From a virus: a stretch of DNA of 64,000 bases. The DNA lies in the IMG/VR virus record IMGVR_UViG_3300020471_000004, positions 1-64,000 of that record; one strand, written 5' to 3'. Both the position numbers and the translations under genes were made by a program. The notes under the pieces were generated by a model. That model was not told the DNA's origin and searched no databases. It saw nothing but the letters and a program-made list of their open reading frames with translations. Below, one piece after another: positions 13,917 through 51,241 of the stretch. Each line of letters starts with the position of its first letter. Position 1 is the stretch's first letter.

Positions 13917-14603
13917 CTATTCCAAGTCCACTACCATCAACAAATGTTTAACTTCGCCTTGAAGCCGTGTCGTGCCTACTTCTACGTCAATACCGCGAAT
14001 GGAACTTTCAACCGTTTCTTCTAACTCTTCTGCCCAGTCACCGAACTCACCTACGCGCAAATGGTTACGCCTACGGTAAGAGCGCAATGTACTAGATACA
14101 TCATAGAAGTGATAGAATTCCCCAGGTAACATTTCTTGTGTCTTGATGAACTTGATACGGTTCATTCCTGGGTATTTAACTTTTGAAAGACGGGAAGTTA
14201 ATCCAGTATTTTCTTTAGGTGCTTTTAAATCTTTAACACGAACCTCTACAGTCTTGGTCCCTTTGCTAGGGTCAAGCTTGTTTTGTTTATCGTGTCCTGC
14301 AGGTGCACCTCTTAAACTATCTTTAACAGACTTACCATCTACCTTACCAGTAAATGTGCGTGAGCGTTTAAGTAAAGCACTCAGTTCTCGTTGAGATATT
14401 TTGAACTTTAGGTCCAGTGCTTCTGCATCGATTAAATAGAAGTTACCGCCACGAATAGGCTTAACTCCAAAAACATGACCTGCTTCTAGAATTAGATCGT
14501 AACTACGGTGGTGTTGTAGAAACTTTGCAGGTCTTTTGCCTAAGAACTTATACCAAGCGCAGCTTTTAACGTCTACAGGTTTTGCCGATAGACTTATAAG
14601 CAT
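13917..14603 (-). CDS. Probable internal head protein, SH3-like module
   Basis: 228 residues, basic. It starts MLISLSAKPVDV, the second form of the shared N-terminal peptide. Residues about 17-85 (W-Y-K-F-L-G-K, then G-H-V-F-G-V-K-P-I-R-G-G-N-F-Y-L-I, then a helix ending L-L-K-R-S-R) closely match residues 17-90 of the protein at 40585-42285 and more loosely 27881-28819. The rest has no recognised domain. It lies between the tube-like gene and a very basic 109-aa protein. I infer packaging in the head; nothing excludes a tail role. Confidence 0.5.
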   Translation of the reverse strand: MLISLSAKPVDVKSCAWYKFLGKRPAKFLQHHRSYDLILEAGHVFGVKPIRGGNFYLIDAEALDLKFKISQRELSALLKRSRTFTGKVDGKSVKDSLRGAPAGHDKQNKLDPSKGTKTVEVRVKDLKAPKENTGLTSRLSKVKYPGMNRIKFIKTQEMLPGEFYHFYDVSSTLRSYRRRNHLRVGEFGDWAEELEETVESSIRGIDVEVGTTRLQGEVKHLLMVVDLE

Positions 14604-14606
14604 AAC

Positions 14607-14936
14607 TTATCTTCTTTTAGGTTTAGGTAAACGTTGAAGCATCTGTATTTTGCGCTTGTACTCCATATAGAAAGAACGCGCTTCTTTACGTGCTTCTTGA
14701 ATCTCCTGAGGAGAGCCTTCACGATACTTAACTTTATCCAGGCGCGAAAGAATTTTAGAGCGCAAGTTACGAGCTTCACGCTGCATAACTGAATAACGAT
14801 CTTTTTTCTGGATACGCTTACGGTAAGGCCCCCGGCGACGGCGAGGTCGAAAGCGGCGCATACGTCTTTGTGCAGGGTCTACACCTAAATCTTTGTAGTC
14901 AACAGATTCAGATGAAAGGTCAAGATTGATTTTCAT
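14607..14936 (-). CDS. Highly basic internal-type protein with targeting peptide
   Basis: 109 residues. It starts MKINLDLSSESV, the MKI[DN]L-type peptide ending in S-E-S-V. Residues 23-109 are extremely rich in Arg and Lys (R-R-M-R-R-F-R-P-R-R-R-R-G near 24-36) and helical, which suits DNA binding inside the capsid like the small internal proteins of T4. AAGGAT is well placed before the ATG. If the peptide is cut after S-E-S, a protein of about 97 residues with a strong positive charge would remain. Confidence 0.6.
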   Translation of the reverse strand: MKINLDLSSESVDYKDLGVDPAQRRMRRFRPRRRRGPYRKRIQKKDRYSVMQREARNLRSKILSRLDKVKYREGSPQEIQEARKEARSFYMEYKRKIQMLQRLPKPKRR

Positions 14937-14986
14937 AAGTAAGAATCCTTTAAATCGGCCTTCCTTGGCCCTACTTCACGGCTAAA

Positions 14987-15499
14987 TTAGGCAACTTCTT
15001 TGTAGTAGTCGAAGCTGAATTCAACAGCAACAGGAAGAGCTTGCGAACTAGAACCGTCAAAAGAAAGATCAGGTACAGTCTTGGGCCAGACACCGAAGAT
15101 TTCATAAACAGCGGCTTCACTACCGTCCTGTTTAAAGATTCGGAAAGTGCCTGTGACTGCGTAGTCTGCTTTAAAGTTACCAAGCTGAGATTCATGGTCA
15201 CGGCAATAATTAACCCACTGTTCGAGAGGTTTATAAATTGCCATTTCAGAGTTTTCAGCAAACTCTGCACTCATGCTTCCTGTAACGGTATTCTTACCTG
15301 CGTGCCGCACAGTATGACCAAATACTTCTATCAATACTTCTTCGATAGTCATACCAGGCTTAGTAGCAGTACGGCACTGAATACGCAAAGCTTCTCCAGC
15401 ATTTATACCATCAGGTAACTGCGGAAAAGAAAGCTCGTAGTTGTCTGACAATAAAGGATCGCCGATACTTATAGCATCGTCAAGTGTTGGTTTAGTCAT
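14987..15499 (-). CDS. Tail tube protein (gp19-like)
   Basis: 170 residues, the expected length for T4-like tube proteins. It has the family's arrangement: N-terminal S-D-N-Y-E-L-S-F-P, a C-R-T-A-T-K-P-G-M-T strand leading to F-G-H-T-V-R-H-A-G-K, a helix with W-V-N-Y-C-R-D-H, then strands ending V-E-F-S-F-D-Y-Y-K. It is directly downstream of the first sheath gene (12 bases), the classical sheath-tube order. It stacks as hexameric rings forming the DNA conduit inside the sheath. Confidence 0.8.
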   Translation of the reverse strand: MTKPTLDDAISIGDPLLSDNYELSFPQLPDGINAGEALRIQCRTATKPGMTIEEVLIEVFGHTVRHAGKNTVTGSMSAEFAENSEMAIYKPLEQWVNYCRDHESQLGNFKADYAVTGTFRIFKQDGSEAAVYEIFGVWPKTVPDLSFDGSSSQALPVAVEFSFDYYKEVA

Positions 15500-15510
15500 A
15501 TTAAATTACC

Positions 15511-17130
15511 TTATGTCCGGTCGAGATATTCGATAGCTGATTGAATCTGACCCGTTTTCGGAACTACTGCGGTCAAGTGAATTCGTTTGGTATAACGAGT
15601 AGGGTCAAGATAAACATCAACGATTAGATCGCCATTAGCAATAGTGTCATTGGTGTTATTACGACGGTCACAAATAACTTCAAACCAGTACAGGCCACGA
15701 CCGCGGCGCACAGGTTCAAGTAAGTTTGTTAATGTAGTTTTTTGTTGGTCCATCAGCAATTGCGTGATAGGTTTGAACACAGCATATTGGTTATTAAGCT
15801 GTACCGCGGCATGAAGCATAGCAAGCATACGGCGAACACCAACATCCTGTACAGCACTTTTCACAGTGTATAGCGTATCAGCACCCCAAACAACTACACC
15901 GTAGCCTGTCATGTTACGCACGATATTGATTTGGTTTTCAACTAATGCGTTACGGTGACCTTGCTTGTAATTCTGATTAAGATTCAGAATACCATTAAGC
16001 GTACCGTTTTGGATACCTGCAGGTGCAAACCAAGGCGCTTCGTTTTCATCAGTACGAGCATATACCGCAGCTACGTGACCGCTAGGTGGTACCCAAACGT
16101 CAACACCGTTACCTGTATCTCTAACCAATAAGTCAGGGCCGTAGATTGCACTGTGGCTAGAATTCAGGTTCAAGATATTGCGTCTGTAGTCAATAGCTGC
16201 CTGTGTTTCTTGCATATCGCTAGGTAAGTCTAGAACTGCAATACAGTCTTGGCGTACAGTGCAGATGGTATCCATCTTTAATTGAATTGCAGGGTCAGAG
16301 TAGCCTGCATTAATCAAGATGTTTACATCAATTTCTTCTGGGTCCATATAACGATCCCAGGCATTGATAATGTCACCTGTAGTTATTGGGTTACCGTCAC
16401 TACCTTGAGTAAGCTGACCGTTAAGCTCGTTGTTAACGTCATCGCGCATACCTCCACCGATAGCATTAATTAACTGAGGCTTATTGGTATTTGCAAACTC
16501 GTAATGCTGAGTATTGAAACGAATACTCACAAGATTACTACGTTTGTTTACCTGGTCTTCGATATACATTTGACGACCAGACTCGTCTACTTTACGGAAA
16601 CAAGTACCTACGTATTCTTCAAGAGGTATTGTATTTGAACCTTCGTAAACTCGGAAATAGAAGCTATCGCCAGAGTCATCTGCGGTGTTAGGGAAGAACT
16701 CTATCCAGAGATTATTGTTCCATTCACCTTCGTCACGACCGTACACGAGCATAATATCATCTTGTGTTAGTGTGACAGCGTTAGGGTTAGCAAAGCCTGC
16801 ACCTAAGCTTCGAGTATCGCTGTAGTTATTGTCTGTGAATACGATTACGCCGCCGTAAAGGGCATCACGCGCAACACGAGTAAAATATAGGCGATTAGCT
16901 TCTGCTAGAAACGCCTCGGCGCAGTAGTGCGCTTTGTTTTTAACAGGATCTTTCGTGCCGAAAATTCGGCGAAAGTCTTCGTTGTCAGTTGCTAGTGTAG
17001 GTACGCCGATAGGTCCGCGTGTTGAGTACCCTACCATGCCACCAATAGAGGTAGCAGCGGCAGTAATACGCTGGTCACGCAAATTCTCGGCAGTATATAC
17101 ACCCGCTGACGAATTACTGGTAGCAAGCAT
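15511..17130 (-). CDS. Tail sheath protein 1 (main sheath)
   Basis: 539 residues. The N-terminus (S-S-A-G-V-Y-T-A-E-N) and the segment G-Y-S-T-R-G-P-I-G-V-P begin the usual sheath pattern. The C-terminal domain has A-V-L-D-L-P-S-D-M-Q, V-P-P-S-G-H-V-A-A-V-Y-A-R-T-D, W-F-A-P-A-G, and C-D-R-R-N-N-T-N-D-T-I-A-N-G-D. These are conserved in contractile sheath proteins and very similar to the second sheath at 57317-58963. It should polymerise around the tube and contract on infection. Being directly before the tube gene it is the likelier main sheath. Confidence 0.9.
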   Translation of the reverse strand: MLATSNSSAGVYTAENLRDQRITAAATSIGGMVGYSTRGPIGVPTLATDNEDFRRIFGTKDPVKNKAHYCAEAFLAEANRLYFTRVARDALYGGVIVFTDNNYSDTRSLGAGFANPNAVTLTQDDIMLVYGRDEGEWNNNLWIEFFPNTADDSGDSFYFRVYEGSNTIPLEEYVGTCFRKVDESGRQMYIEDQVNKRSNLVSIRFNTQHYEFANTNKPQLINAIGGGMRDDVNNELNGQLTQGSDGNPITTGDIINAWDRYMDPEEIDVNILINAGYSDPAIQLKMDTICTVRQDCIAVLDLPSDMQETQAAIDYRRNILNLNSSHSAIYGPDLLVRDTGNGVDVWVPPSGHVAAVYARTDENEAPWFAPAGIQNGTLNGILNLNQNYKQGHRNALVENQINIVRNMTGYGVVVWGADTLYTVKSAVQDVGVRRMLAMLHAAVQLNNQYAVFKPITQLLMDQQKTTLTNLLEPVRRGRGLYWFEVICDRRNNTNDTIANGDLIVDVYLDPTRYTKRIHLTAVVPKTGQIQSAIEYLDRT

Positions 17131-17160
17131 GTATGTTACTCCTATGGATTTAACTCTACT

Positions 17161-17177: not shown

Positions 17178-17181
17178 TTGT

Positions 17182-18230: not shown

Positions 18231-18243
18231 TGTTTTCTCGAAA

Positions 18244-18746: not shown

Positions 18747-19826
18747 TTAGATACGCTTACCTTTAGCAACAGAGCGAACGTTACCTACCAAGAAGCTAAT
18801 GCTTTGGCTAATTAACCAACCTTTGTTAGTTTCGCCTTGGTTAGCACCGTCAGTAGGAGTAGAACGGATACCGCGAGTCGAGAACGCTGCGTGGTGTTCA
18901 GGATCAGATACAACGTAGATTTCACCTTTATCAAGAACGCGTTGGTTCTCAGGACGGAAACCGTCGGTCATAAGTTCCATACCGATTAGTGTACCGATTT
19001 TACCGTTCATTACTAGGTCGTACTTAGATACTGGATCTAAGAAAGCGCTGAACTCGCTGTTACCGATAATGTCTTTCCAGAAGTCATTAGAGATAATCGC
19101 TTTAGTAGCTGGTAAGTTCCAACCAGATACTTGTTCAGAAAGTGACGCAAGCATTTTAGGCGTAAGTTCACCAGAAATGTATGAAATGTCGTTAACGCGA
19201 CCAACAGTTGCATCAACAGCACGTTTCCAAATGCGGTCTTCTGCAACCATTACTGCTTCCATTGCCTGGTCGCGAATGTCACGTAGAAGGTCGCCAGATG
19301 ATTGGTCAAGCTCAAGTTGCGATACGCGTACCGCAGACTTAACTTCGTATTCAGCAGGTGTGAACTGACGGTCACGAATTAGCTGGTAACCCATCTGAGT
19401 TGGTGATGTTGATACAACAGCTTGAACTTCGTGGCGGAACATAGGGATACGCGGGTATTCACCTTGTTTAAGGTTGTTACCTACTGCTAGGTTACGCATG
19501 AAGCCTGCACGGTCTGCTTGCTCAACGATACGATCAGAAATCGCAGCACCAAGAGCAGCCCAGTCATCTAGGTTAGAGTTAGCTTGAGCGATCAAATCAC
19601 GGAATTCCTCAGAAGTCATTGCGTCTTCTTGAGGTGCTTCAACGATTTGTCCAGCAGAAGCCATTGACATTAACTTACCAATGTTTTGCATTAGTTCGTT
19701 ACGGTCGTGTGCGTTGATTTCACCGTTTGATGAAAGCGCCTTCATGCCGGAACCAGGTAAAATTAGGTTGTCTAGCGATTCGCCGTTTGCCATTACGTGG
19801 CGGAAGTTACGAGCAGAATGTTTCAT
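18747..19826 (-). CDS. Major capsid protein (HK97-like)
   Basis: 359 residues. An N-terminal helical region of about 90 residues is followed by a capsid core: Y-P-R-I-P-M-F-R-H near 123-131, a long segment with A-V-R-V-S-Q-L-E-L-D-Q, K-A-I-I-S-N-D-F-W-K-D, then G-K-I-G-T-L-I-G-M-E-L-M-T-D and G-E-I-Y-V-V-S-D-P-E-H-H. These follow HK97-fold major capsid proteins of giant myoviruses. The N-terminal part is expected to be removed by the prohead protease: L52-M-S-M-A-S-A58 resembles the inferred cleavage element. It sits between decoration-like and TPR-like genes, flanked by two mRNA hairpins. Confidence 0.75.
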   Translation of the reverse strand: MKHSARNFRHVMANGESLDNLILPGSGMKALSSNGEINAHDRNELMQNIGKLMSMASAGQIVEAPQEDAMTSEEFRDLIAQANSNLDDWAALGAAISDRIVEQADRAGFMRNLAVGNNLKQGEYPRIPMFRHEVQAVVSTSPTQMGYQLIRDRQFTPAEYEVKSAVRVSQLELDQSSGDLLRDIRDQAMEAVMVAEDRIWKRAVDATVGRVNDISYISGELTPKMLASLSEQVSGWNLPATKAIISNDFWKDIIGNSEFSAFLDPVSKYDLVMNGKIGTLIGMELMTDGFRPENQRVLDKGEIYVVSDPEHHAAFSTRGIRSTPTDGANQGETNKGWLISQSISFLVGNVRSVAKGKRI

Positions 19827-20619: not shown

Positions 20620-22599
20620 TTAGAAGGATTTCATTGCTCTAGAAAGTTTTGATTGGAAGTCAGAAGTTGAAACCGCAGTTGATTGCGACTCCAAAGTTTT
20701 TTCTTTTGGTACAACACGAGGTTGTAAACGTTGCTCTACAGAACTAACAGATTCCTGTCCGTCTTTACGAGCAAAAGAACTAGCAGCAACCATTTCGGCA
20801 ACTTCGTTTTGGAAGTCAGCGGACTTGCTGATAAGTTCCATCGTCTGGTCAACCAACAGCTTGTTGAATGCACCTGCGTTAGCTTCAAACACGTTATCAA
20901 TAAGCTCACGAGCATTATCAATACCTGCAGCCTTCAAGGTACTGGCCAAGCTTGAAATGATTGGGTTAGACTTTCCACGGAACACACCGTTATTCAGTCC
21001 CATGATAGAAGTAGCAAGGGCAGCACCCAGGCGTTCCATCAGTTTAGCATCGCGGTCTTTCTGGGCTTGTTCGTAGCCTGCAATTTTTGCATCCGCTTGT
21101 GCAACGATTTCTTTAGAGATAACCGTTTGCATTGTTTGTTCGTCAAAAGCAATTGACTCGAAACCGAACTGTTTAAGACCTGACTCTACGCCATCGTTAG
21201 CGATTGCTTTTAAGCAAGCTTGGCGGTAAGTAGGTTGATTAAAGATGCCACGTAGATTACCTTCGACATTTGACTCTGATGCAACTGCAACAGGAGTAGC
21301 GCCATGGAAAGCAACCCAACGGTTTTCACCAGCAACAACAGATACATTAGCTAGGCTAACTTGGTCTGCTTGTAAACCGCCTTCGGTAGAAGATGCAACC
21401 GCAGTCATAACGTCAAGAGAAGCAGAAACAGATACAGAGTCAGATTCAAGCTCTTCATCGTCATCGTCATCTTCTTCATCTTCTTCGTCATCTAGACCAT
21501 CAACGTCTTCGTCTTCGTCAGAGTCATCTTCGTCAGAGTCATCTTCGTCTTCGTCAGAGTCATCTTCGTCTTCGTCTTCGTCTTCGTCTTCGTCTTCGTC
21601 AGAAGAAGAGATAACTTCGAAATCATCGTCCAGGTCATCGAACTCGTCATCGTCCAGGTCCGAATCAATGTCGTCAAGGTCGTCAAGGTCGTCATCGTCA
21701 TCTAGATCCATATCCATGTCGTCATCCAACATAATATCATCTAGGTCATCGTCTTCATCCATAAGAAGATCATCGTCCATGTCCATAGAGGCATGTTCAA
21801 GTTCATCTAAAACTTCTGGATCGACAACGGCGGTAGAACAGCTAGGGCACACTGTAATGTCTTCGCTAGAAGAAAGAACGTGCATACCGCATTCTTCTGA
21901 ATCAGCACAAACAAAGTAATGCGCATCAGTTCCGAAACGGTCAGCAGCATCTTGCACTGCACTAGAGTTAGACTCTAATTCCTGCGCTGCAACTTCTTCA
22001 CCGTAGAAAGGACTGTAGTGAACAGAACCGCTAGAGTTAGAAATAAAGCTAACTTGGTTTTCGGTGTCTTCGTAAGCAGAAACAGGAGAATCGCCTGCTA
22101 GAATAGCCAGGTAGTCTTCTTTGGCTTCTTCAAAAGAAGAGGCAACGACAACGATACCTTGCTCGCCTTCAAGCTCTTGAACAAGAGCGCTTTCAGACTC
22201 TAGCTCGTCTTCTAAATCGCGGTCGAAATCTACATCGGTACTGCACGAAGGACAGTTAGATACAGACTCGCAAGCATCTGCGATAATGTGCGTGTTACAT
22301 TCAGAACACATGGTGTAATGAACTGACACTTGGTCTTCTTGGTCGGCACTGCTGGTAACTTCGAGATCAGTATCTAAAACCTTCATTGAGTCTCTGTTAC
22401 CAGACAGAGGATTCAAAAAAGATTTATGCGCACCAGCAACAGTAGCGATAGCAAAAGAACCGTCGGCAGAAGAAAGAACTTCTAGGGACTCTTGTTTAGC
22501 AACCATTGCGTAGTTACGGATAGCTTGTTCTCGGGTACCTGCAGTAACAACAATACCGCCAAAGCTAGGCTGAGTCGGTGATTTTTGTTTTACTGTCAT
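20620..22599 (-). CDS. Prohead scaffold / core protein, acidic, zinc-knuckle repeats
   Basis: 659 residues. Residues about 14-133 and 148-268 are a tandem duplication, each starting G-I-V-V and ending in a cysteine pair module (C98-x-x-C101 with C116-x-x-C119; C231-x5-C237 with C251-x-x-C254). Residues 272-385 are almost only Asp, Glu and Ser, typical of a prohead core. Residues 390-610 are mixed helical. LESESA (133-138), LESNSSA (208-214), LESDSV (384-389) and LESQSTA (636-642) lie at domain boundaries and look like protease sites. It is the first gene of the head unit, upstream of decoration and capsid genes. AGGAGGT-like sequence (GTACCTCCTGAGGAG) lies before the ATG. Confidence 0.65.
   Translation of the reverse strand: MTVKQKSPTQPSFGGIVVTAGTREQAIRNYAMVAKQESLEVLSSADGSFAIATVAGAHKSFLNPLSGNRDSMKVLDTDLEVTSSADQEDQVSVHYTMCSECNTHIIADACESVSNCPSCSTDVDFDRDLEDELESESALVQELEGEQGIVVVASSFEEAKEDYLAILAGDSPVSAYEDTENQVSFISNSSGSVHYSPFYGEEVAAQELESNSSAVQDAADRFGTDAHYFVCADSEECGMHVLSSSEDITVCPSCSTAVVDPEVLDELEHASMDMDDDLLMDEDDDLDDIMLDDDMDMDLDDDDDLDDLDDIDSDLDDDEFDDLDDDFEVISSSDEDEDEDEDEDEDDSDEDEDDSDEDDSDEDEDVDGLDDEEDEEDDDDDEELESDSVSVSASLDVMTAVASSTEGGLQADQVSLANVSVVAGENRWVAFHGATPVAVASESNVEGNLRGIFNQPTYRQACLKAIANDGVESGLKQFGFESIAFDEQTMQTVISKEIVAQADAKIAGYEQAQKDRDAKLMERLGAALATSIMGLNNGVFRGKSNPIISSLASTLKAAGIDNARELIDNVFEANAGAFNKLLVDQTMELISKSADFQNEVAEMVAASSFARKDGQESVSSVEQRLQPRVVPKEKTLESQSTAVSTSDFQSKLSRAMKSF
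21504..21602. repeat. Tandem hexamer and 15-mer repeat coding the acidic tract
   Basis: The plus strand repeats GTCTTC many times and GTCAGAGTCATCTTC three times within the scaffold gene. It encodes Asp-Glu and Asp-Ser-Asp-Glu runs. It is likely to vary in length by slippage. Confidence 0.85.
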
Positions 22600-22907: not shown

Positions 22908-24278
22908 TTACTTTGCATCTAAGTCAAGCGAGTAGTAGTCTACTAGTTTGCCTTTAAGTTCTGCGGATACTCCTGATGAAGGCACATCATAGGAAACAAA
23001 CTTAACGCCTCTACCGTAAGCTTTGGTCACAGAAGCTTTCCACTCATTGTAGCTTTGACCTTTATTCTGGCTAGGGTTATCTAGGCGCGAGCTTTTGCCT
23101 GTATTCTTTGTGTCTGGACTACTGCTTTTTGTGCCTGAACGTTTTTTAGCCTGTTCGACTTTTATTTGGCGACTAGTAGGTGTTTTTTCTATAAGCTTTT
23201 CTGCTTTTCTAAGATCCCTTTGCAAAGGACGTATCTCGGCATTTAAGTCTCTAGCCTGTTGGGCTAATTCTTTTTTCTTTTCCTTGTTATCTGTGTTGTC
23301 CATGCGCTGCTTTATGCGCTCTACTTTTTGCTGCAACTTAACTATGTTCTTATACATTTTATAAGTATCAGGCGCTTTTACTGGAGCCTTAGGCTCCCTA
23401 GTTACTCGTGCTTTGCGTGTCTTAGAAGCAGTTTCATTAGGAGATTTCTTGCGTCCCTCAGGCACTTCTTCACCGTTCATAATACCTGCAATACGGCGTG
23501 CAGCTATACGAGGTCCTGCATAGTACTTGCGCATAGGTCCACCGCTAGCAGGCTGGTGGAATACATGCCAGCCAGGTGCAAGCATACCAGGTGAGCGTTT
23601 CTTGCGTCCCATTTTAGAACCTACGTTGCCTTTACCTCTAGCAGGAGCCGCCGATTCAGATTCAATACTTGATACTGAAATAAACGCTTCGTTGCCTCTA
23701 GAACCGTCACCGCGTGAGCTTCTACCGCGAGAATAGTCTACAAGGTCTTGAACAGCTAAAGGTATAGCACGTACATCTGAACATTCGCGGAAAGCAACGT
23801 GAACATTAGATTTAGTTAGTTCAAAAGAGTAGACACCGTCTTCAAAACCGTCATAGTTTATAGAGTAACCGCTAGGTAGCCGCGCTTGTTTAATAGCTTT
23901 ATAGGCGGCTTGGTTGCCAACGTTTGAATTTGAAGTGCTTTCTCTCTCAAAGTCTTCCTCAAAGCTTAGTGCCTCTGCTTCAAGGTCTGTAATAGACTCT
24001 GAGTAAGGACCGTCAGGGTCAATATCCCATAAACCGTCACTTGCTAGTGCCTCCATTTCCCGTTGTGCGAACAGGCGATTCTTCATGCTAGGGGTATACT
24101 TGGCTTCTTTAGATATGCGGAAAATACTAAATAGACCTGTACGGCTTTTTAATACGTAACGTCCTGGTTGAGCAAAAACTACTCGTGCTTTAGGCTTTAC
24201 TGTAGCAAGAGCCTTTTCAATAGTAGCAGGAATAGGGTGCTTAGAACGTGCGCTTTCTGAAAGTATTTGAATATACAT
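22908..24278 (-). CDS. Probable internal head protein, basic, two processing motifs
   Basis: 456 residues. It starts MYIQILSESA, one of the clearest copies of the N-terminal peptide with its S-E-S-A end, and carries I-E-S-E-S-A at 205-210, just before a strongly basic region (G-R-K-K-R-S-P). Residues 300-390 are charged and helical. An N-terminal segment (R-Y-V-L-K-S-R-T-G-L-F-S-I-F) may be a distant SH3-like strand pair. Cleavage at 210 would release an acidic-neutral N-terminal part and a basic C-terminal part. No enzyme motif is seen. It ends just before the terminator ahead of the scaffold gene. Confidence 0.55.
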   Translation of the reverse strand: MYIQILSESARSKHPIPATIEKALATVKPKARVVFAQPGRYVLKSRTGLFSIFRISKEAKYTPSMKNRLFAQREMEALASDGLWDIDPDGPYSESITDLEAEALSFEEDFERESTSNSNVGNQAAYKAIKQARLPSGYSINYDGFEDGVYSFELTKSNVHVAFRECSDVRAIPLAVQDLVDYSRGRSSRGDGSRGNEAFISVSSIESESAAPARGKGNVGSKMGRKKRSPGMLAPGWHVFHQPASGGPMRKYYAGPRIAARRIAGIMNGEEVPEGRKKSPNETASKTRKARVTREPKAPVKAPDTYKMYKNIVKLQQKVERIKQRMDNTDNKEKKKELAQQARDLNAEIRPLQRDLRKAEKLIEKTPTSRQIKVEQAKKRSGTKSSSPDTKNTGKSSRLDNPSQNKGQSYNEWKASVTKAYGRGVKFVSYDVPSSGVSAELKGKLVDYYSLDLDAK

Positions 24279-24293: not shown

Positions 24294-25271
24294 CTATTTA
24301 CTACGCTTAGTGCTTTTAGTGCTTTTAGTGCTTTTAGTACTACGGGTGCTTTTAGTACTACGCTCTTTGCGGGTTTTAGACTTAGGGCTTAAAGCATCAA
24401 TCTGTTTTTGGACTTTTTCTTGTAAAGCTTCCCACGCATCAACTGCCTTATCCATTTCTGCTTCAACCTTGTCATACTCTTTATTGAGTTTGTCCAGCTT
24501 TTGTTGAATTTCTTTTTTCTTAGAGCCTTCAGCGTCTCTGAGTTCGTACTCAAGATCATCAATATCATCGGCTAGGTCAATGCTTTTGTCTTCAAGCTCG
24601 GCGACCTTTTCAAACTCCTTGCTTGACTCAACACTTTGGCGCAATTCGTCTATTTGTTTTCTAGCTTTTTCTTTTTCTTCTTTTTCTTTGTACTTTTGAG
24701 GATTGTTGGCTTTATCGGCTTTCTCAAGTTCCTTGTGTTCAGCTTCAAGCTTCTTATATTTCTTTTCGAGCTTCTTCTTGGTCTTTTTAGCAGCAACTCT
24801 TTCTTCGTCTACTTCTTTTTTGTAATACTCGATTTCTTTTTTAGCGTCAGCCACTTCTCCCTTGGCGTATTCTATTTCACTTTCGTCTCCGTCCTCTTCG
24901 GCCTCTTCAAGCTCTTCTTGGGCATCTTCAAGACGTTCTTGGGCATCTTCTAACCTACGTTGGTTTTTAGTATCACCTTCTAGGGCATCTTCGGCTTCAT
25001 CTAACTCGAAACCAAGGTTTTCCATTTTAAGAGCCACAGAATCCAAGCGCTTTTCAATTGATTTAGCAGACTTATCTTTTGTAGTAGAAGCATTGTCCTT
25101 TTGAGCTTGCTTCTTGGTAGTGTTGTCACGTTCTGCCTTTGGTTTAGCTAAACGTTTGGCATGGCTGCTGTTCGGGTACTTTTTTAGGTATTTCTTTTTC
25201 TCAGAAGAACCTAATTTTGCAAACTGCTCAGCAGACAAGCCTGCACTTTCTGAATTAAGAGTAATAATCAT
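24294..25271 (-). CDS. Coiled-coil internal-type protein with STK-repeat tail
   Basis: 325 residues. It starts MIITLNSESAG, matching the N-terminal peptide, followed by F-A-K-L-G-S-S-E-K-K-K-Y-L-K-K-Y-P-N-S-S-H-A-K (about 17-40), which is shared with the protein at 33458-34828. Residues 70-300 are a long, highly charged coiled coil. The C-terminus is repeated Ser-Thr-Lys or Ser-Thr-Arg triplets encoded by 9-base repeats. It would be rod-shaped with a basic DNA-binding tail. Packaging in the head is inferred from the peptide. Confidence 0.55.
   Translation of the reverse strand: MIITLNSESAGLSAEQFAKLGSSEKKKYLKKYPNSSHAKRLAKPKAERDNTTKKQAQKDNASTTKDKSAKSIEKRLDSVALKMENLGFELDEAEDALEGDTKNQRRLEDAQERLEDAQEELEEAEEDGDESEIEYAKGEVADAKKEIEYYKKEVDEERVAAKKTKKKLEKKYKKLEAEHKELEKADKANNPQKYKEKEEKEKARKQIDELRQSVESSKEFEKVAELEDKSIDLADDIDDLEYELRDAEGSKKKEIQQKLDKLNKEYDKVEAEMDKAVDAWEALQEKVQKQIDALSPKSKTRKERSTKSTRSTKSTKSTKSTKRSK
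24309..24362. repeat. 9-bp tandem repeat encoding Ser-Thr-Lys/Arg tail
   Basis: AGTGCTTTT occurs three times in tandem, followed by alternating AGTACTACG and GGTGCTTTT units, at the 3' end of the coiled-coil gene. It codes for repeated S-T-K and S-T-R on the minus strand and is prone to slippage. Confidence 0.85.
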
Positions 25272-25279: not shown

Positions 25280-25753
25280 CTAGATTGTTTCATACAAGCG
25301 TTTAAGACCAGCCATCTTTCCTGGGTAACCTTTACGCTGTAACAAATTAAAAAAGTCTACAGGCTTCATGTTGTGCAAGGGATTACTATCTCTAGCAGTA
25401 CCGCGCGGGTGAATATAGTCTTTGACAAATTCATCAAACTCTATTTCGTACTCTACCATACTGTCAACAAACTCCAAGAACTGTTCCCAAAGTTTATCTT
25501 CGTCAGGAGTATTCAGATCCACAAGTTCAAAGGATTTGACCTCGGCAATAGGTAACGCTCGGGGGTATGCCAGTATACCGTGCCTATAGTTTCGAGAGTC
25601 ACGAATACCTGCAAAGCGTTTATCTTTTGCAGCTTTTTCTGCATCGATAAACTCTACAGGCTGGGGGTTTGTAGGCTGTGCCCCTATAGAATAAGGTCTG
25701 AATTTCAGTCCGTAATAGAACTTTTGGTTACTTAATGAAATTAGAAGTTTCAT
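25280..25753 (-). CDS. Hypothetical protein, ISLS-type N-terminus
   Basis: 157 residues. It starts MKLLISLSNQKFYYG, close to the MLISLS form of the shared peptide but lacking S-x-S-A. The middle (R-D-S-R-N-Y-R-H-G-I-L-A-Y-P-R) and C-terminal half (E-Y-E-I-E-F-D-E-F-V-K-D-Y) are globular in character. No family is recognised. It sits between the topoisomerase and coiled-coil genes with 7-8 base gaps, so it is co-transcribed with the internal-protein run. Confidence 0.55.
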   Translation of the reverse strand: MKLLISLSNQKFYYGLKFRPYSIGAQPTNPQPVEFIDAEKAAKDKRFAGIRDSRNYRHGILAYPRALPIAEVKSFELVDLNTPDEDKLWEQFLEFVDSMVEYEIEFDEFVKDYIHPRGTARDSNPLHNMKPVDFFNLLQRKGYPGKMAGLKRLYETI

Positions 25754-25760: not shown

Positions 25761-27434
25761 TCAAATAAGCTTTTCTATGTTAGCTGGCATTCTTAAACCT
25801 AGGCGTTCATAGAAGTCTGCCAAAATAGCAGGGTCAATATAGTTAGCAATAGCAGTAGATATAGTAAGCTTACCGTTATTAAAATGGCCAAGCTCTTTGG
25901 CTACTTTTTGTAAAGCACCTTTTAACCAAGTCTCTGCGTCTTTGTTAGTTACCTGGCGTTTACGAGTAAATAAAGGACACTTTTCAATAATATCTCTTGC
26001 TAGACGTGTACCTTTAAGAGTACGGAATTTGTGAGCAGTAACCCCTTCAGGTAACATAGACTTCAAATATTTGTTTACAGCATTGGCTGTTATACGTCTG
26101 TTACCGAAAGTAAATAGAGGGTCTTTGCGCTTCTTGCCTTCGCTAAGTTGGTCAAGCAGTTCTATAATCAATTTGTTTGTGACAGAATTAGGTTTAAGCA
26201 CATGCTTTTGGACCTGTGCTTTCTTGGCTTCGTACTTTATTTCTCGGTTCTGACCTTTCTTGTAATAGTGACCTGATTGCAGTACAGTCAAACCGTATGT
26301 GGTCTTATCACCTGTCTTGCCTTCACGGGTACCTATACGCGCACTGGTTTGGTACATAACTTCTATAACAAGACACAGCAAGCCTTCTTTGGTTGATATG
26401 CCTTCTGATTTTAGTTTCTGCAACCAACGTCTTCTTACACCAGGCGCTACTTTTTCAAATTCTTCTACAATCTTAAACTTTTTGCTACGTTGCTTAGAGT
26501 TCCACCTTTCGGTGTATACCTTTAGATAGTTTTCAGCAGCAGGGGCCTTATATTCTAAAACATAGGCGTTATCTTTTTTAGGATCGTAGTTAGGATTCAT
26601 GCGAACATCGCCTGCTATACCTTTATTGCTTAACAACAAACCTTTTGAGGTATAGTAAGAAAGAGTATCGTCAATGTAACCAACAAACTGTTCAGGTAGA
26701 TTGTGATGGCGTATGCCTGCATCTTTGATAGCATCAATTACTTCACGGATGTCCAGATACGGCTTACCTGATTGGCGTACATAGTTTACAACAAAGTTTT
26801 TCCATGCTTTATTTACTTCTAGGCTAGCTTTTCGGAATTCAACATAGACAGGATTGTCTTTGTGTTTCTTGCGGAGTTCTTGACTTAGGTGGATAGTGCC
26901 GTCACCACCTAACTTGGTGCTAAGTTTAGAAACCTTTTTAAGTAAACTATCTTGGTCACTTACTTCTAGTTCAAACAGACTTGAAAGAGCTACATCGTTT
27001 AAGTCACTTACTTTGGTCTTTAGAACGTTAATCGCATTCTGCCTAGAAGTTTCTTTAGGAGACGTAGCAATTGTGTAGAACTTTTTGATTATGTCTAGTC
27101 CTGACCTAGATATAAGAGTTTCGTTCTCTATTTTAGCACGTACCTTTTTGTCTCTTACCTGCTTGGCTACTTCATACGCAGAACCTAGAAAGTCTTCGTC
27201 CTCTTCGTGTAAGGTATACCCTTTTAAGAAAAGGCTTGTCATTTCATCGTAAGCTTTTAGGTTAAACTTGTAGTGGGCCATAAACTCACGCCCTTGCTTA
27301 ACCCACTCACGGATGTCGCCAGCTAGGTTATGAGGGAATTTGTATTCAGGACTATCTGAATATGCGACAAGCAGCACCACTTTTGTAAATGCCGTTGCTA
27401 TGTCAGAATTAATTTTTGATAAAGATACTAACAT
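25761..27434 (-). CDS. Type IB DNA topoisomerase
   Basis: 557 residues from the ATG at 27432-27434, which overlaps the upstream stop as TAATG; a longer start would overlap by 36 bases more. The C-terminal half matches poxvirus/bacterial-type topoisomerase IB: catalytic R366 in S-A-R-I-G, T-Y-G-L-T-V-L, K404/K405 in the beta-hairpin, T-A-H-K-F-R471-T, H517 in E-L-G-H, and the probable nucleophile Y532 in N-Y-I-D-P. It relaxes supercoils through a 3'-phosphotyrosine. The N-terminal ~290 residues are an extra domain. It starts MLVSLSKINSD, the ISLS-type peptide of presumed head proteins, so it may be packaged and injected. Confidence 0.75.
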   Translation of the reverse strand: MLVSLSKINSDIATAFTKVVLLVAYSDSPEYKFPHNLAGDIREWVKQGREFMAHYKFNLKAYDEMTSLFLKGYTLHEEDEDFLGSAYEVAKQVRDKKVRAKIENETLISRSGLDIIKKFYTIATSPKETSRQNAINVLKTKVSDLNDVALSSLFELEVSDQDSLLKKVSKLSTKLGGDGTIHLSQELRKKHKDNPVYVEFRKASLEVNKAWKNFVVNYVRQSGKPYLDIREVIDAIKDAGIRHHNLPEQFVGYIDDTLSYYTSKGLLLSNKGIAGDVRMNPNYDPKKDNAYVLEYKAPAAENYLKVYTERWNSKQRSKKFKIVEEFEKVAPGVRRRWLQKLKSEGISTKEGLLCLVIEVMYQTSARIGTREGKTGDKTTYGLTVLQSGHYYKKGQNREIKYEAKKAQVQKHVLKPNSVTNKLIIELLDQLSEGKKRKDPLFTFGNRRITANAVNKYLKSMLPEGVTAHKFRTLKGTRLARDIIEKCPLFTRKRQVTNKDAETWLKGALQKVAKELGHFNNGKLTISTAIANYIDPAILADFYERLGLRMPANIEKLI

Positions 27435-39583: not shown

Positions 39584-39913
39584 CTACGCTAGTTGGATTA
39601 TTACGTAAGACTCTGCCTTTGCTTGGTCATACACGACATTGAGTACAGGTCGTGTCAAGGCAGTTTGGGAATAGCCTACAAGGTCTTTACCTATTGCTTC
39701 AAGCACTTGCTTATAAATAGGCTTTTGCTCTACATTAGAAAAATCCCAAGTAGTCTTTGAATTCTCTGTAGTTACCTTCGGATAAAGTTTTTCATCTACT
39801 GCACCTTCATCCAAAGCTGCCTGTACTTGGTCTAAGCAGGATGCAACATCAGTACCTGTAGTAATATCGGCATCACAAGAGCCTGATATAATACTGTTTA
39901 AGTCTAAATTCAT
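39584..39913 (-). CDS. Small internal-type protein, MNLDL start
   Basis: 109 residues from ATG at 39911-39913, chosen because GAGGAT lies 7 bases upstream; a longer start at 39934 has none as good. It starts MNLDLNSIISGSCDADIT, similar to the MKIDL type. The rest is acidic, helical and unrecognised. It follows the 211-aa gene by 33 bases. Confidence 0.5.
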   Translation of the reverse strand: MNLDLNSIISGSCDADITTGTDVASCLDQVQAALDEGAVDEKLYPKVTTENSKTTWDFSNVEQKPIYKQVLEAIGKDLVGYSQTALTRPVLNVVYDQAKAESYVIIQLA

Positions 39914-39946: not shown

Positions 39947-40582
39947 TTAGTAAGGCAAACCTGCTAAACTTCTACCAGTAATGAACTTGTAGAATTCTTT
40001 AGATGGAGGTACGCCTGCACGTAGGTAAGTTCTAACGCCTTGCGGCCAGCGCCATTTATCTAAAGAGTATTCTCCTGAACCTGCATTGCCTCCTGTCCAG
40101 CGATTGTGGGCATCACCTTTATTACGGGTTAAGCGAGCTTCTTTTTGCTTTAAAGTAAGCTGACGTAAGAAATCTGCTTTGTCGTAGCCTCTAACATCCA
40201 TTGCAACAGGGAAAGGCAGTTTACCTCTTGCAGAAATCGAAGGTCTCCAGTACCCGAAGACTTTTCTAGGGAACGCTTTGCCTGCATTAAGCTCTTTAAA
40301 CAGTGCTTTACTGTGCGTACCAGGCTTACGTGCAAGTTTTATTGAAGCAGAATCATCTTTTAGCTTCTGGGCTTTGGCTTTACCTACAGCCTTCTTCGGT
40401 TTAAACTTGACTGTTATCTGCACTTCACCACCAAGGTTGTAACCTACCTTAAAGTTCTTGGCAGTTAAGGAACGTGGAAGCTCTGTTTTGTCACCTAATG
40501 CCTCAAGCAACGTAGTTTGAAACTGTTCTGTGCTTTTGGCTATTTTGTCTACAGCACTATTGGATTGTAATTGTACCTTCAT
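39947..40582 (-). CDS. Internal head protein, basic, QSNSA targeting peptide
   Basis: 211 residues. It starts MKVQLQSNSAVDKIAKS, with the S-N-S-A ending. Mature residues are strongly basic (K-P-K-K-A-V-G-K-A-K-A-Q-K-L-K, R-G-K, K-Q-K-E-A-R-L-T-R-N-K) with a C-terminal aromatic segment (W-R-W-P-Q-G-V-R-T-Y-L-R-A-G). This composition suits DNA contact inside the head. Gap to the upstream gene is 2 bases. Confidence 0.6.
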   Translation of the reverse strand: MKVQLQSNSAVDKIAKSTEQFQTTLLEALGDKTELPRSLTAKNFKVGYNLGGEVQITVKFKPKKAVGKAKAQKLKDDSASIKLARKPGTHSKALFKELNAGKAFPRKVFGYWRPSISARGKLPFPVAMDVRGYDKADFLRQLTLKQKEARLTRNKGDAHNRWTGGNAGSGEYSLDKWRWPQGVRTYLRAGVPPSKEFYKFITGRSLAGLPY

Positions 40583-40584
40583 AC

Positions 40585-46516: not shown

Positions 46517-47557
46517 TTATCGCGCCACTGTTACGCCTACACCTTCTACCTGAAAGTAAATACGCATCCCTTTGTTATCAGGGTGGTTAGCATTTAGCGC
46601 ACGGTACTTTCTAGGCTGGGCTTCACCGTATACGTCAACTTCATGTGTTGCATATTGCGAAGTAACGTCTGCCGAAGCAAAAGCAATAATATCAATCTCT
46701 TGTGAGTAGCTGTACCGTTGAGTATTTAAGCCACGCAGGAAGTTGATAATGTATTTACCGTTCTCGTATATACTTGTCTGTTGAACAGAGTTCATAATAC
46801 GCGTAGAGTCGGGAGTATCTGTAGATGCCGATACAGGGAAAGTAGGCGCGTTAACATCTTTTTCTCGCACAACAAACTTCTGGATACCTAAAGGCTCAGG
46901 AGAGTTCAGGTCACTGCCGCCTCCGCCATTTTGAGAGAAGATACAAAATAAAGGTTCTTTTAAAGTAGTGTCTAAAGCACCTGTACTGTCAACCATACGC
47001 GAAATAGCAAACCATGCAAACTTATCACCCTCACCATCAAAAGACTCTGCCCACATGCAGAAAGCAATGCCGTGGTCGGTTACTGTAAGGAAATAACTAA
47101 GAGGTACAGACTCTTCATCGTTACCTGAGAAACCCCAGTTTTCATAAGAGAAAAAGTGATTTCTGTTTCCGCCTGTTAGAACTTGGCTGTCTTTAAACAT
47201 AAAGCCTGACTTAGAGACATTTGTGTTGTCACCGCTAGTTCTTGAAGTAGCCACAGTAACTGAACCCGAGTTACCCAGAATTAACTGAGTAGGAGTAAAC
47301 GCATAAAAGTCTAAACTATCGTCATCGTCATCAGCCTCTATATAAAGTAACCAAGGCTGATTACCTTCACCGCACAAAGGGTCTACATCAACTGTAGGTT
47401 GAAGCAAAATATTCTTGTGAGTAGAGGCTAAAGTTAAATCTGAATTTTGTTGGTCTACTGACAAAACAGTAAAGCCGTTTGCAGTTAGGTTTATAGCTAA
47501 GTCTGCTGCAAGTGCCTCGACACTTATAAAGTTATTCTTTTCTATTGTAAAACCCAT
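46517..47557 (-). CDS. Virion paralog family, copy 1 (346 aa)
   Basis: 346 residues. It shares with four neighbours (47557-52269) the patterns S-Y-x-L-x-x-x-D-H-G-I-x-F-x-M-W-A-E-S, R-E-x-D-V-N-A-P-T, D-S-T-R-I-x-N and T-Q-R-Y-x-Y, and a C-terminal G-M-R-x-x-x-Q. I know no function. Such runs of large paralogs in giant phages are usually structural proteins of tail, baseplate or fibres. One-base overlap with copy 2. Confidence 0.6.
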   Translation of the reverse strand: MGFTIEKNNFISVEALAADLAINLTANGFTVLSVDQQNSDLTLASTHKNILLQPTVDVDPLCGEGNQPWLLYIEADDDDDSLDFYAFTPTQLILGNSGSVTVATSRTSGDNTNVSKSGFMFKDSQVLTGGNRNHFFSYENWGFSGNDEESVPLSYFLTVTDHGIAFCMWAESFDGEGDKFAWFAISRMVDSTGALDTTLKEPLFCIFSQNGGGGSDLNSPEPLGIQKFVVREKDVNAPTFPVSASTDTPDSTRIMNSVQQTSIYENGKYIINFLRGLNTQRYSYSQEIDIIAFASADVTSQYATHEVDVYGEAQPRKYRALNANHPDNKGMRIYFQVEGVGVTVAR

Positions 47558-48753
47558 TAGATAATTCCTTCAGCTTCGGTGATCATAAGCATACGCATTC
47601 CTCTATTAAAAGAAGCGTTTGCGCCTAGACCGACATATTTTCGAGGAGTACTTTCGCCGTAGAAAGTAAGTTCAATTTCATTATTTTGAGATACTGCATC
47701 AGCACTAGTATATGCAATCATATCCAATTCATGAGGGTACCCATAACGCTGAGTACTTAGACCGTTAGGGAAGTGTATAATGAATTTTTCGTCTTCACCT
47801 ACAGCTACCTGTTCTTTGTTATTGATAATACGAGTAGAGTCCGCGGTATCAATAACAGCGCTACGTGGTAGAGTAGGCGCTGTTACATCGCTTTCGCGTA
47901 CTACCAAATACATGATCTGGTCATGCTCGTCCTTAGGATCTAGGTCTCCGTTACCTGCAAGAGAGAATACGCAAAATAGAGGACTAAGACCGTCAACTAT
48001 TACAGCACCTGTATCTTTATCTACCATACGCTGAACACAGAACCAAGCTTGGTCTTGTCCGTCGCTGTCATAAGCTTCTGCCCACATAGCAAAAGAAATA
48101 CCGTGGTCTGATAAGGTAATTCTATAGCTAAGAGGGTGTGCAGAGAAGTCGCCTACTTTGCCCCAGTTTGGCTGATTCTTCTGAGTGAAATCTTTTTCTT
48201 GGTTTTGTGCATCGTCATTGAAACAATAGAAGAAACCGTTAGTATAAGTCTTAGCAGTACCAGAACCGCCCTTAACGTCTATGTACTTACGAATCAAACT
48301 ATCGTAGCTTAAAAAGCCTGCACCTTTTTCAATTCTTTCGCGAGTACCGTTGCCTGACGAACTGTAAGGCATAAAGTCTTTAAAATATTTGTAAGCAATT
48401 CTCCAGGTACCATCTTGATTCTTTATAATTTGGGTAGGTGTACATACCCAAATACGTAACCAGTTTTGATGACCTTCATTGAATCGGTAAGACAGCTTAC
48501 CAGAACCATCGTCACCTTCAGTAGATTGTGCTGTAATAAACACAACCCAAGGTTGATCTTCATCACCTGCTAGCGGGTCTACAGATGTAGTTGCTTTTAA
48601 ACAAACAGCAGTCGTCTCTCCATCCGGTATAGAGTTACTTGCTGCCCCGTTGTGGTATATGGCTTCAAAACCATTAGCGACCATGTCTTTGCTAAGAGCA
48701 TTAAGAAGCTCTGTAGCTTTGGCAAAGCCTTCGCGTTTTGTAGTAAAACCCAT
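47557..48753 (-). CDS. Virion paralog family, copy 2 (398 aa)
   Basis: 398 residues from ATG at 48751-48753 (M-G-F-T-T-K-R-E-G), chosen by similarity to copies 1 and 4 and GGAG 7 bases upstream. It is the longest copy, with an insertion of about 50 residues in the first third (near K-Y-F-K-D-F-M-P-Y). It keeps D-H-G-I-S-F-A-M-W-A-E-A, W-F-C-V-Q-R and the C-terminal G-M-R-M-L. Same array as copies 1, 3, 4 and 5. Confidence 0.6.
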   Translation of the reverse strand: MGFTTKREGFAKATELLNALSKDMVANGFEAIYHNGAASNSIPDGETTAVCLKATTSVDPLAGDEDQPWVVFITAQSTEGDDGSGKLSYRFNEGHQNWLRIWVCTPTQIIKNQDGTWRIAYKYFKDFMPYSSSGNGTRERIEKGAGFLSYDSLIRKYIDVKGGSGTAKTYTNGFFYCFNDDAQNQEKDFTQKNQPNWGKVGDFSAHPLSYRITLSDHGISFAMWAEAYDSDGQDQAWFCVQRMVDKDTGAVIVDGLSPLFCVFSLAGNGDLDPKDEHDQIMYLVVRESDVTAPTLPRSAVIDTADSTRIINNKEQVAVGEDEKFIIHFPNGLSTQRYGYPHELDMIAYTSADAVSQNNEIELTFYGESTPRKYVGLGANASFNRGMRMLMITEAEGII

Positions 48754-48773
48754 TGTTATCTCCAAAAATTAAA

Positions 48774-49781
48774 TTAATCGCCGCCTGCTGTCCAGAACAT
48801 AACACGCATACCTGCGTTATATTGTTTATCAGCCGTCATGCCTTGATAAGTACGCTCATTACTTTCACTGTAAGGATTAGTCGTTAACGTAGAGCTTTGG
48901 CTCAGTACGTCACTTGATATAATCCCTACTAGGTCAAGCTCTGTGTCGTAACCATACCGCTGAGTGCAAAGGCCGTTAGGAAAAGTCAGTACAATCTCAT
49001 TGCCTTCTCTTATAGACACCTGCTGCTTGTTGTTTATGATCCTGTTTGAATCTGCTGTATCTTCTACTGCGGTTACAGGAATAGTAGGTGCATTAACATC
49101 ACTTTCTCTAACAACAAACTTTTGAATAGCATCACCATCCGAAGAACTTGGATTGTAGGAAAATACGCAGAACAGAGGACTTTTGCCTGTTGTAACAGGA
49201 ACACCTGCAGGTGTAACCATTCGCTGACACACAAACCATAAAAACTTATCGCCATCGCTGTCTGCACTTTCAGACCAGATACCTACAGAAATACCGTGAT
49301 TGGTTTGGTTAAAACACAAACTAAAAGGATATGCCTGGGTATCTGAACCTGCAAGTCCCCAAACTTCATAGTCTAAAGTTCTTCGGTATTCACTTTCTCG
49401 GGAACTGTCGAAGTGAACACTGCCGGGAGTAAGTTTACCAGATGCAATACTTTTAGAGTCCTCTTGTTTTTTAAGAGCTATACGCCAGTTGTTATTTGAC
49501 GGATCTACGATGATTTGTTCAGGAGTGACTATATAGATATCCATCCACTGTTCAGATTCGTTGAACTCAAGAACTATACCCCAAGGTTGACTACTAACTA
49601 TAGAATCTATAGTAGAAGTCGCCTTAAGGTAAATCTTTTCTTGAATATTGTCGATATTTCCTGGTTCAGTGTCATCAACTCGAACTACTTCAAAAGAACC
49701 GGAGTCTTTAAAAGTAGAAGCAATCTGGATAACTAGGTCCCGAAACGTCACAATGCCGTTATATAGGAAACTAGAAGACAT
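48774..49781 (-). CDS. Virion paralog family, copy 3 (335 aa)
   Basis: 335 residues. It aligns with the other copies from about residue 65 on (N-H-G-I-S-V-G-I-W-S-E-S, R-M-V-T-P-A-G, V-V-R-E-S-D-V-N-A-P-T, C-T-Q-R-Y-G-Y-D-T-E-L-D) but its N-terminus (M-S-S-S-F-L-Y-N-G-I) differs. It is the most diverged of the five. Same strand and spacing as the rest. Confidence 0.6.
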   Translation of the reverse strand: MSSSFLYNGIVTFRDLVIQIASTFKDSGSFEVVRVDDTEPGNIDNIQEKIYLKATSTIDSIVSSQPWGIVLEFNESEQWMDIYIVTPEQIIVDPSNNNWRIALKKQEDSKSIASGKLTPGSVHFDSSRESEYRRTLDYEVWGLAGSDTQAYPFSLCFNQTNHGISVGIWSESADSDGDKFLWFVCQRMVTPAGVPVTTGKSPLFCVFSYNPSSSDGDAIQKFVVRESDVNAPTIPVTAVEDTADSNRIINNKQQVSIREGNEIVLTFPNGLCTQRYGYDTELDLVGIISSDVLSQSSTLTTNPYSESNERTYQGMTADKQYNAGMRVMFWTAGGD

Positions 49782-49783
49782 AA

Positions 49784-50797
49784 TTAAATACCTGCGCCTT
49801 TAATAAGACAAAACATACGCATGCCTGTATTCCTAGGGAAGTTCGCCTGCATACCAATATATTGTCTTGGTTCGTCTTCACCATATAAAGGTACATCAAT
49901 GGCTTGGTTCTGCGATATAACATCAGCGCTGGTGTAAGCAATCATGTCCAATTCATAGCTATAATCATACCGCTGAGTATTAATACCTTGAGGAAAGCGT
50001 ATAGTGTAGTTATTGTCTTCTGACAAAGAAACTTGTTGCAGAGGATTAATAATAGCACGGCTATCAGGTCCGACTTTAACAGCACTTTCAGGACGAGTAG
50101 GTGCATTAACATCCGTTTCGTAGACTACGAATTTAAGAATAGCTGATTCTACTGCATTAATATCCTCAGAGTCGGCAATATTTGTACTACCTCCACCTGC
50201 TGTGGCAAATACGCAGAACAGAGGACTTTTGCCTGTTGTGACTACAGTACCATCTTTTTGTACAGGTCTTTGAATAGTAAACCAGCTAAAACAGTCACCT
50301 GCCTTATCAAAAGACTCTGCCCACAAAAAGAAACTAATTCCGTGGTCACTGATAGACAGGCGATAGCTAATTGGTATAGCGCGAGGGTCTACACCGCCTA
50401 TATTAAAACACGACCAGTTAGAGTCTGTTCTACTCATGAACTTAGAGTTAGGTTCACCTACTTCATTGTCTAAAAATAAATGACCTGATTGAGAGCTAGT
50501 GCCATTAGCGGCTACCGTATATGTATCACTAAGCTGAGTAACATGGCAAGCCCAGAAGCGTATAAAGCCTCCGTCTGCATCAGTCGCTTCTAATACAAGT
50601 CGCCAATCTTGACCTACAGGATCTACATCAGTAGTAGGGGCAAAAACATAGTGCGTTGTGCCGTCACTAGGAACAGGACTTGAATCACTACCGTTAGCTG
50701 CAATTAAGGTATAACCGTTCGCAACAAGGTCTTGAGCTAGTTCTTTTCCAAGCTTCTGCACAGATACGTAACTATTACGTTCTACAGAAAAGCCCAT
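49784..50797 (-). CDS. Virion paralog family, copy 4 (337 aa)
   Basis: 337 residues, starting M-G-F-S-V-E-R-N-S. It keeps all shared blocks (D-H-G-I-S-F-F-L-W-A-E-S-F-D, Q-R-P-V, N-A-P-T-R-P, I-N-P-L-Q-Q, T-Q-R-Y-D-Y-S-Y-E-L-D-M-I). It is closest to copy 5 by eye. Between them lies a 145-aa unrelated gene. Confidence 0.6.
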   Translation of the reverse strand: MGFSVERNSYVSVQKLGKELAQDLVANGYTLIAANGSDSSPVPSDGTTHYVFAPTTDVDPVGQDWRLVLEATDADGGFIRFWACHVTQLSDTYTVAANGTSSQSGHLFLDNEVGEPNSKFMSRTDSNWSCFNIGGVDPRAIPISYRLSISDHGISFFLWAESFDKAGDCFSWFTIQRPVQKDGTVVTTGKSPLFCVFATAGGGSTNIADSEDINAVESAILKFVVYETDVNAPTRPESAVKVGPDSRAIINPLQQVSLSEDNNYTIRFPQGINTQRYDYSYELDMIAYTSADVISQNQAIDVPLYGEDEPRQYIGMQANFPRNTGMRMFCLIKGAGI

Positions 50798-50806
50798 TTC
50801 GTTCTC

Positions 50807-51241
50807 CTATCTATTTCGAAACTTATGGAGGTTTCTTTCACTTTTAAAATGGTTCAGAAGCACATGATGTTCAGGAGTACCTGGTATCATCCAAGAGCTA
50901 GGAGGCTCTACGTGGTTCTGGAATTCTTTGTTAAACAGTTTGTAACCTTCGCCCAACTCTTTATCAGAGTTTAAGGCTCTTTGCATTATCTCTCCGTCAA
51001 TTGCATTCTGCCTAGTAAAAGCCTTTACCATCCTTTCTTTGACTTTCGAACCATATACAAACGTATACAATTCAGGAGTAGGCATCTTTAAGTATAAACG
51101 AAATGCCTTAAAGAACCCTCTTGCTACTTCCAGTATATGGTCTTTTTCAATATCAAGATAGTAGATCAAGTTCATCACATCATGCAGTTCCCTAGCTAAA
51201 CCTATCTTGGGAATATTGTTTAGAGAGATAAGCATTCTCAT
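50807..51241 (-). CDS. Small protein with MLISLN start, inserted in paralog array
   Basis: 144 residues from the TAATG-overlapping ATG (51239-51241); the M at residue 3 begins MLISLNNIPKIG, the ISLS-type peptide. The rest is helical and basic (K-V-K-E-R-M-V-K-A-F-T-R) with no recognised domain. It splits copies 4 and 5 of the array, so it may have been inserted after duplication or retained as a partner. Confidence 0.55.
   Translation of the reverse strand: MRMLISLNNIPKIGLARELHDVMNLIYYLDIEKDHILEVARGFFKAFRLYLKMPTPELYTFVYGSKVKERMVKAFTRQNAIDGEIMQRALNSDKELGEGYKLFNKEFQNHVEPPSSWMIPGTPEHHVLLNHFKSERNLHKFRNR

Follow-up and report, generated by a model that had tools for sequence, protein, structure and literature searches.

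The analysed window comprised bases 1-64000 of a virus record of 232,692 bases. Phage NCTB was the closest annotated relative, with 72% DNA identity over part of the sequence. The capsid protein grouped the phage with PaBG, Lu11, HRDY3 and jumbo phages of Dickeya and Erwinia, most of which have been named the Lupandier group (PMC7412058). Pseudomonas putida KT2440, a laboratory strain, is among the hosts of relatives by capsid protein. Genes were called with a simple script on the record in pieces, which yielded 248 genes; a few at the piece boundaries are missing. A preliminary description had ascribed a common N-terminal peptide to about 17 proteins. All of the listed genes exist and are located on the minus strand. 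In three of them (25761-27434, 33458-34828 and 39584-39913) the true start was not that of the longest open reading frame. About a dozen of the 17 genes encoded a hydrophobic start followed by S-x-S(-A). This tag was clear in ten genes (13917, 14607, 22908, 24294, 25280, 25761, 32220, 33458, 39947 and 40585; Table 1), and 30863 and the protease 31414 were related cases, not clear tags. In the other five, 27881, 28835, 39139, 39584 and 50807, the tag was weak or unsupported: they had an MK-hydrophobic prefix at most, and their relatives did not retain it. Three of these (39139, 39584 and 50807) were dropped because the tag was missing in relatives. Gene 5864 (MAISLSG) was also dropped, its tag being not conserved and missing in NCTB. 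The N-termini of the ligase and glycosyltransferase genes were read and carried no tag, in agreement with the earlier statement on tag-free neighbours.

Table 1. Genes of the tag cluster and its surroundings, with their N-termini and those of relatives
Gene product	Position	Strand	N-terminal feature	Profile match	Starts in relatives
KMPT-N protein, 228 aa	13917-14603	-	tag MLISLSA-KPVD	PF20294, E 5.5e-9	many relatives: MLISLSA, MLILLSESA, MLFFVSVSA, MLFFISTSA
Very basic Arg-rich protein, 109 aa	14607-14936	-	tag MKINLDLSSES-V		NCTB orthologue MKIFIDIPSES-V
Major capsid protein	18747-19826	-		phrog_2522, E 1.8e-93	
456-aa protein	22908-24278	-	tag MYIQILSESA		NCTB MKIVSISA, MKIISISA; relative L024 MSINITFESLSA
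Basic 325-aa protein	24294-25271	-	tag MIITLNSESA		
DarA_C-domain protein (antirestriction family), 157 aa	25280-25753	-	tag MKLLISLSN; domain starts at residue 10	PF18789, E 1.7e-7, above cutoff	L024 MEIFISLSA; NCTB MLISISL
Topoisomerase IB, 557 aa	25761-27434	-	tag MLVSLSK	PF01028, E 1.1e-19	
SprT/KMPT-N-like gene, doubtful tag	27881-28819	-	MKIDV prefix only		
Gene with doubtful tag	28835-30763	-	MKIDV prefix only		
182-aa protein, weaker tag	30863-31411	-	MKIDLTKRSISS		NCTB positional counterpart MKVFLSESK
Head maturation (prohead) protease	31414-32217	-	SxSF at residues 19-22	phrog_18299, E 1.5e-92	
413-aa protein	32220-33461	-	tag MKINLLESSSA		
Tagged protein, start at 34828	33458-34828	-	MTLISLSA-QESNWWKK		L024 ..TSLSAEEAGWWKK; NCTB ..VSLSNQEADWWK
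211-aa protein	39947-40582	-	tag MKVQLQSNSA		
KMPT-N protein, 566 aa	40585-42285	-	tag MLISESA	PF20294, E 8.8e-12	MLSQSA (JA13); MQSLSA, MHSLSA (IMG/VR)

Form and frequency of the tag

The tag consisted of a few alternating-hydrophobic residues followed by S-x-S, and the next residue was usually A, K, N or V (for example ISLSA, LSESA and ESSSA). An unsupervised motif search of the N-termini, as suggested in the preliminary description, gave a likelihood above that of shuffles (125 versus 94, s.d. 4.5). The motif itself came out diffuse, and targeted tests were therefore used. The strict core [ILV]-S-[LIVE]-S was present in the first 12 residues of 11 of the 246 proteins of the whole record. 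By chance, 1.1-1.25 were obtained in shuffles (maximum of 1000, 5-6) and 0.96 were expected from windows at internal methionines. NCTB held eight such proteins versus 1.1 expected and Dickeya phage JA13 held 11 versus 1.0 in shuffles. Shuffle controls covered these three genomes and internal methionine controls covered the present phage and NCTB. S-x-S alone was not enriched in NCTB, and looser patterns were generally less clear. In PaBG, the strict core was found in zero proteins and a hydrophobic..E-[SA] form occurred instead (9 versus 3.0 expected).

Tagged genes were concentrated at 13.9-42.3 kb, with 9 of 29 genes compared to 8 of 217 elsewhere (p=1.6e-5, which is optimistic because the finding itself defined the region). 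The equal frequency in non-virion genes that would have spoken against a virion signal was thus not observed, the values being 31% in the cluster and 4% elsewhere. The MK-hydrophobic-x-hydrophobic prefix alone was found in 8 of 29 genes of this region and in 2 of 217 others (p=5.5e-7, with the region picked post hoc) and therefore goes beyond an effect of A-rich starts. Several genes of the preliminary list should nevertheless be dropped. Serine codons of the tag were a mixture of TCN and AGY, differing from gene to gene. This argues against a DNA-level element and bears out the selection at the protein level that had been proposed from codon differences. In our judgement, the tag is almost certainly a real protein-level signal.

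Further copies were located beyond the window at 113105, 125559, 126292, 228112, in the giant helicase 75997 and perhaps at 229271. In the stretch 113105-126759 of the record, tagged genes, including a Nudix hydrolase, lay on the opposite strand amid genes of replication type; their products, if packaged, would require late expression from there. Behind the tags of 33458-34828, 24294-25271 and record 125559-126314, a small common segment of the form F/W..L....KK-Y-L/I-x-x-P-N-S-x-x-A-K was seen by eye, also in relatives. The proteins with this segment were otherwise different.

Exchange of the tag between cargoes and phages

A matrix was trained only on eight tags of JA13. Its top ranks in the present phage were 33458, 13917, 25280, 25761, 125559, 40585, 113105 and 32220, and such scores were found eight times compared to at most 0.65 expected in shuffled sequence. 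The eight JA13 training cargoes had no homologue in the present proteome detectable by BLAST; common descent of the cargo therefore cannot account for the match. The reciprocal matrix, built from the tags of the present phage, gave its top ranks to eight visibly tagged JA13 proteins, with a chance expectation of 1.7.

The tag was modular. In relatives it was present on varied cargo: a DarA_C domain, an ADP-ribosyltransferase, topoisomerase IB, Nudix and KMPT-N proteins. SLSA, SESA and SVSA were swapped among orthologues of one protein (topoisomerase, KMPT-N). Topoisomerase IB orthologues began with MLITLSR, MLISLSR, MHISLSA, MHTSLSA and MLLVSESA, the last from an internal start. The tag was retained across phages with proteins only 30-50% identical. 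Nudix proteins started with MKAQISLSSK..RKQSG in the present phage and MMLNVSLSAK..RKQSG in an Erwinia phage, the layout in both the present phage and Erwinia phages being tag, variable linker and RKQSG. The PaBG homologue starts with MAVRKQSG and has no tag, which identifies the tag as an add-on. JA13 (L088:21437-25185) encoded a pair of paralogues with the tag, 654 and 595 aa long, which shared about 52% identity in their first 230 residues and had no Pfam match.

Among the tagged cargo, homology to a Dar protein was identified for 25280-25753 by its profile match (PF18789, DarA_C). P1 DarA is a head-internal, protease-processed and ejected antirestriction protein (PMC12810830). JA13_190 was an ADP-ribosyltransferase of the polyvalent type (ART-PolyVal, E 2.4e-27) and recalls T4 Alt, a protein with a capsid-targeting sequence (PMC7411985). 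Other tagged cargo comprised topoisomerase IB, KMPT-N proteins, a Nudix hydrolase and a small, very basic protein. The topoisomerase model gave residues 1-6 a pLDDT below 50 and placed the first helix at residues 10-25; the tag is thus predicted to be a flexible peptide ahead of the fold, as expected.

Links to the phage head

The head maturation protease gene was located inside the tag cluster, and the cluster adjoined the capsid gene. The predicted fold of the protease gave BFVD matches to annotated prohead proteases, and no solved structure in the PDB was matched. Its N-terminal S-x-S-F was invariant in ten aligned sequences and followed by a variable linker. In the capsid proteins of Dickeya and Erwinia phages, S-x-S-[A/G/S] or a close variant of it is retained in a hypervariable arm around residue 65. 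Maturation takes about 20% off the PaBG capsid protein (PMC7412058), a loss that falls about at the position of this arm. From the alignment, the S-x-S-[A/G/S] of the arm is a candidate maturation site in the Dickeya and Erwinia phages; the aligned capsid protein of the present phage had no S-x-S there. In the capsid profile, the alignment to the phage G capsid (6wkk) begins near residue 78.

Two PaBG virion proteins had tag-like starts. PaBG gp83 starts with MLIKINLLEAVAAK, and its monoisotopic mass equals that of a published virion band to 0.002 Da (PMC7412058). Most PaBG tags follow another consensus (hydrophobic..E-A), so that it is a matter of judgement to equate this start with the tag of the present phage. 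No homology of gp83 to 22908 or 24294 was found. The 1969-aa, 221-kDa helicase gp202 starts with MGSLFTLNSLSAAID and matched a virion mass within 3 Da; the gp202 match was noticed after the fact. Orthologues of gp202 held LESSSA, LESLSA and STSA near their starts. The tag was missing from the PaBG virion protein gp191 and is therefore not a general feature of internal proteins. An 80-aa ORF adjoining gp83 (PaBG L015:25971-26213), not in the RefSeq annotation, had the tag-like start MIVRIKINLNEALAGDE.

The gene 20620-22599 near the capsid gene encoded an acidic, Cys-rich protein with the PHROGs name 'ATPase'. Its PaBG homologue gp82 is not on the virion list, on which gp80, gp81 and gp83 are included. 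This fits a scaffold or core protein leaving the head, and the 20620-22599 protein could possibly be the receptor of the tag. A viral-contig scan with this protein yielded no relatives; the patterns drawn were acidic low-complexity sequence.

A T4-style E-[SA] consensus was dropped as the sole consensus in both phages. In the present phage the plain pattern [hydrophobic]-x-E-[SA] near the start was not enriched (10 versus 6.7 expected; LSE-S and LLE-S occurred only in some tags), and in JA13 the hydrophobic-strand version was not enriched. Tags without Glu count against T4-style [LI]xE cleavage. S-x-S is a candidate alternative cleavage site to [LI]-x-E, and cleavage of many tags by the prohead protease appears about as likely as not.

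Proposed function and comparison with known systems

The tag is probably a transferable capsid-targeting sequence by which the tagged proteins are loaded into the head, as the preliminary description had proposed. The protease in the cluster, the two PaBG virion proteins, the DarA_C and ART-PolyVal cargo from families with known or predicted head packaging and injection, and the transferability of the tag between the cargoes of different relatives all point in this direction. We infer recruitment to the core, trimming and ejection as follows. Late in infection, the hydrophobic-strand/S-x-S-A peptide would bring each protein to a partner in the prohead core, which may be the scaffold and/or the protease. 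The tagged proteins would be enclosed ahead of DNA packaging, and the resident prohead protease would probably trim some of the tags at S-x-S or close to it. Once enclosed, the proteins would enter the next host together with the genome. The functions delivered would be antirestriction, ADP-ribosylation, DNA topology, Nudix, DNA-binding and some of no assigned function.

The tagged genes 113105, 125559 and 126292, among replication genes on the other strand, count against a location in the head. Together with the position of 13917 (KMPT-N) and 14607 (the basic protein) among tail genes, a setting repeated for KMPT-N in JA13, they could indicate docking to a phage structure or a compartment other than the head core, for example the tail tube/baseplate or a replication organelle. 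This is unlikely, since the head protease lies within the main cluster, which borders on the capsid gene, head packaging has precedents for DarA_C and ART cargo, and no tail protein had a supported tag. It is quite improbable that the motif is partly just an N-terminal prohead-protease cleavage site, with targeting residing in folded domains. S-x-S does recur at the N-terminus of the protease and, in one clade, in the arm of the capsid protein, but the cargo domains are unrelated and yet have the hydrophobic part before S-x-S in common, and a cut that takes off 5-10 N-terminal residues would serve no obvious purpose if these had no role in targeting. A similarity caused by translation initiation, codon effects or DNA-element copying, with no protein function, is hardly credible: A-rich starts favour initiation and three SESA genes have TCAGAAAG in common, but the switches between TCN and AGY, the internal and shuffled controls near 1 and the persistence of the tag at low protein identity argue against it.

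The best reading of the tag is that it acts like the signals of T4 and P1; it was not classed as the T4 kind. The T4 capsid-targeting sequence (IPI, IPII, IPIII and Alt; cut by gp21) is likewise a short peptide at the N-termini of internal proteins that are otherwise unrelated. T4 also encodes its own prohead protease, for which 31414-32217 is the counterpart, and delivers cargo with the DNA, some of it antirestriction proteins or ADP-ribosyltransferases, families that also occur among the tagged cargo. Targeting and processing residues are separable in T4 (PMC9026906). In contrast to the T4 consensus [LI]xE, the consensus here was S-x-S-A, on a dozen or more proteins of a distant jumbo lineage and known from sequences. 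In P1, a reporter is packaged by the first 30 residues of DarB, and that study saw no consensus in the N-termini of the Dar proteins (PMC9024508). The head-internal DarA is matched by the tagged DarA_C domain. Unlike in P1, one consensus was widely common, and the consensus over a dozen or more proteins is therefore a new element. SPN3US and phiKZ are also jumbo phages with many packaged proteins and a prohead protease, which removes N-terminal propeptides with a proposed targeting role (PMC7411985, PMC10052503). However, these propeptides are mostly 111-254 residues long, with cleavage after A-x-E; some 80% of head proteins are left uncut, and no common short tag has been described. DarA_C, ART-PolyVal and KMPT-N domains are shared with the polyvalent proteins, a class for which packaging and injection have been predicted in phages (PMC5512222), but here they were mostly on separate small proteins with one tag each. 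No paper on such a tag in this phage group was found in the open-access literature, which is not proof of absence.

The evidence leans towards a jumbo-phage family that loads a variable takeover and antirestriction arsenal of a dozen or more proteins into the head with one exchangeable, clade-tuned N-terminal address tag. This would be a further head-loading system beside those of T4 and P1, and would explain how unrelated enzymes reach the head. Few of the proteins that jumbo phages inject with their DNA have been identified. If the reading is correct, a scan for the tag would reveal the injected effector set of any family member, turning a genome sequence into a candidate list and giving testable function hints for many genes without a known role.

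Two tail sheath-like proteins were encoded in the window (15511-17130 and 57317-58963), and NCTB likewise has two annotated. The tail-fibre region 46517-52269 comprised five apparent paralogues of about 335-400 aa, interrupted by 50807, most of which had similar N-termini (MGF-x-ekNxf...).
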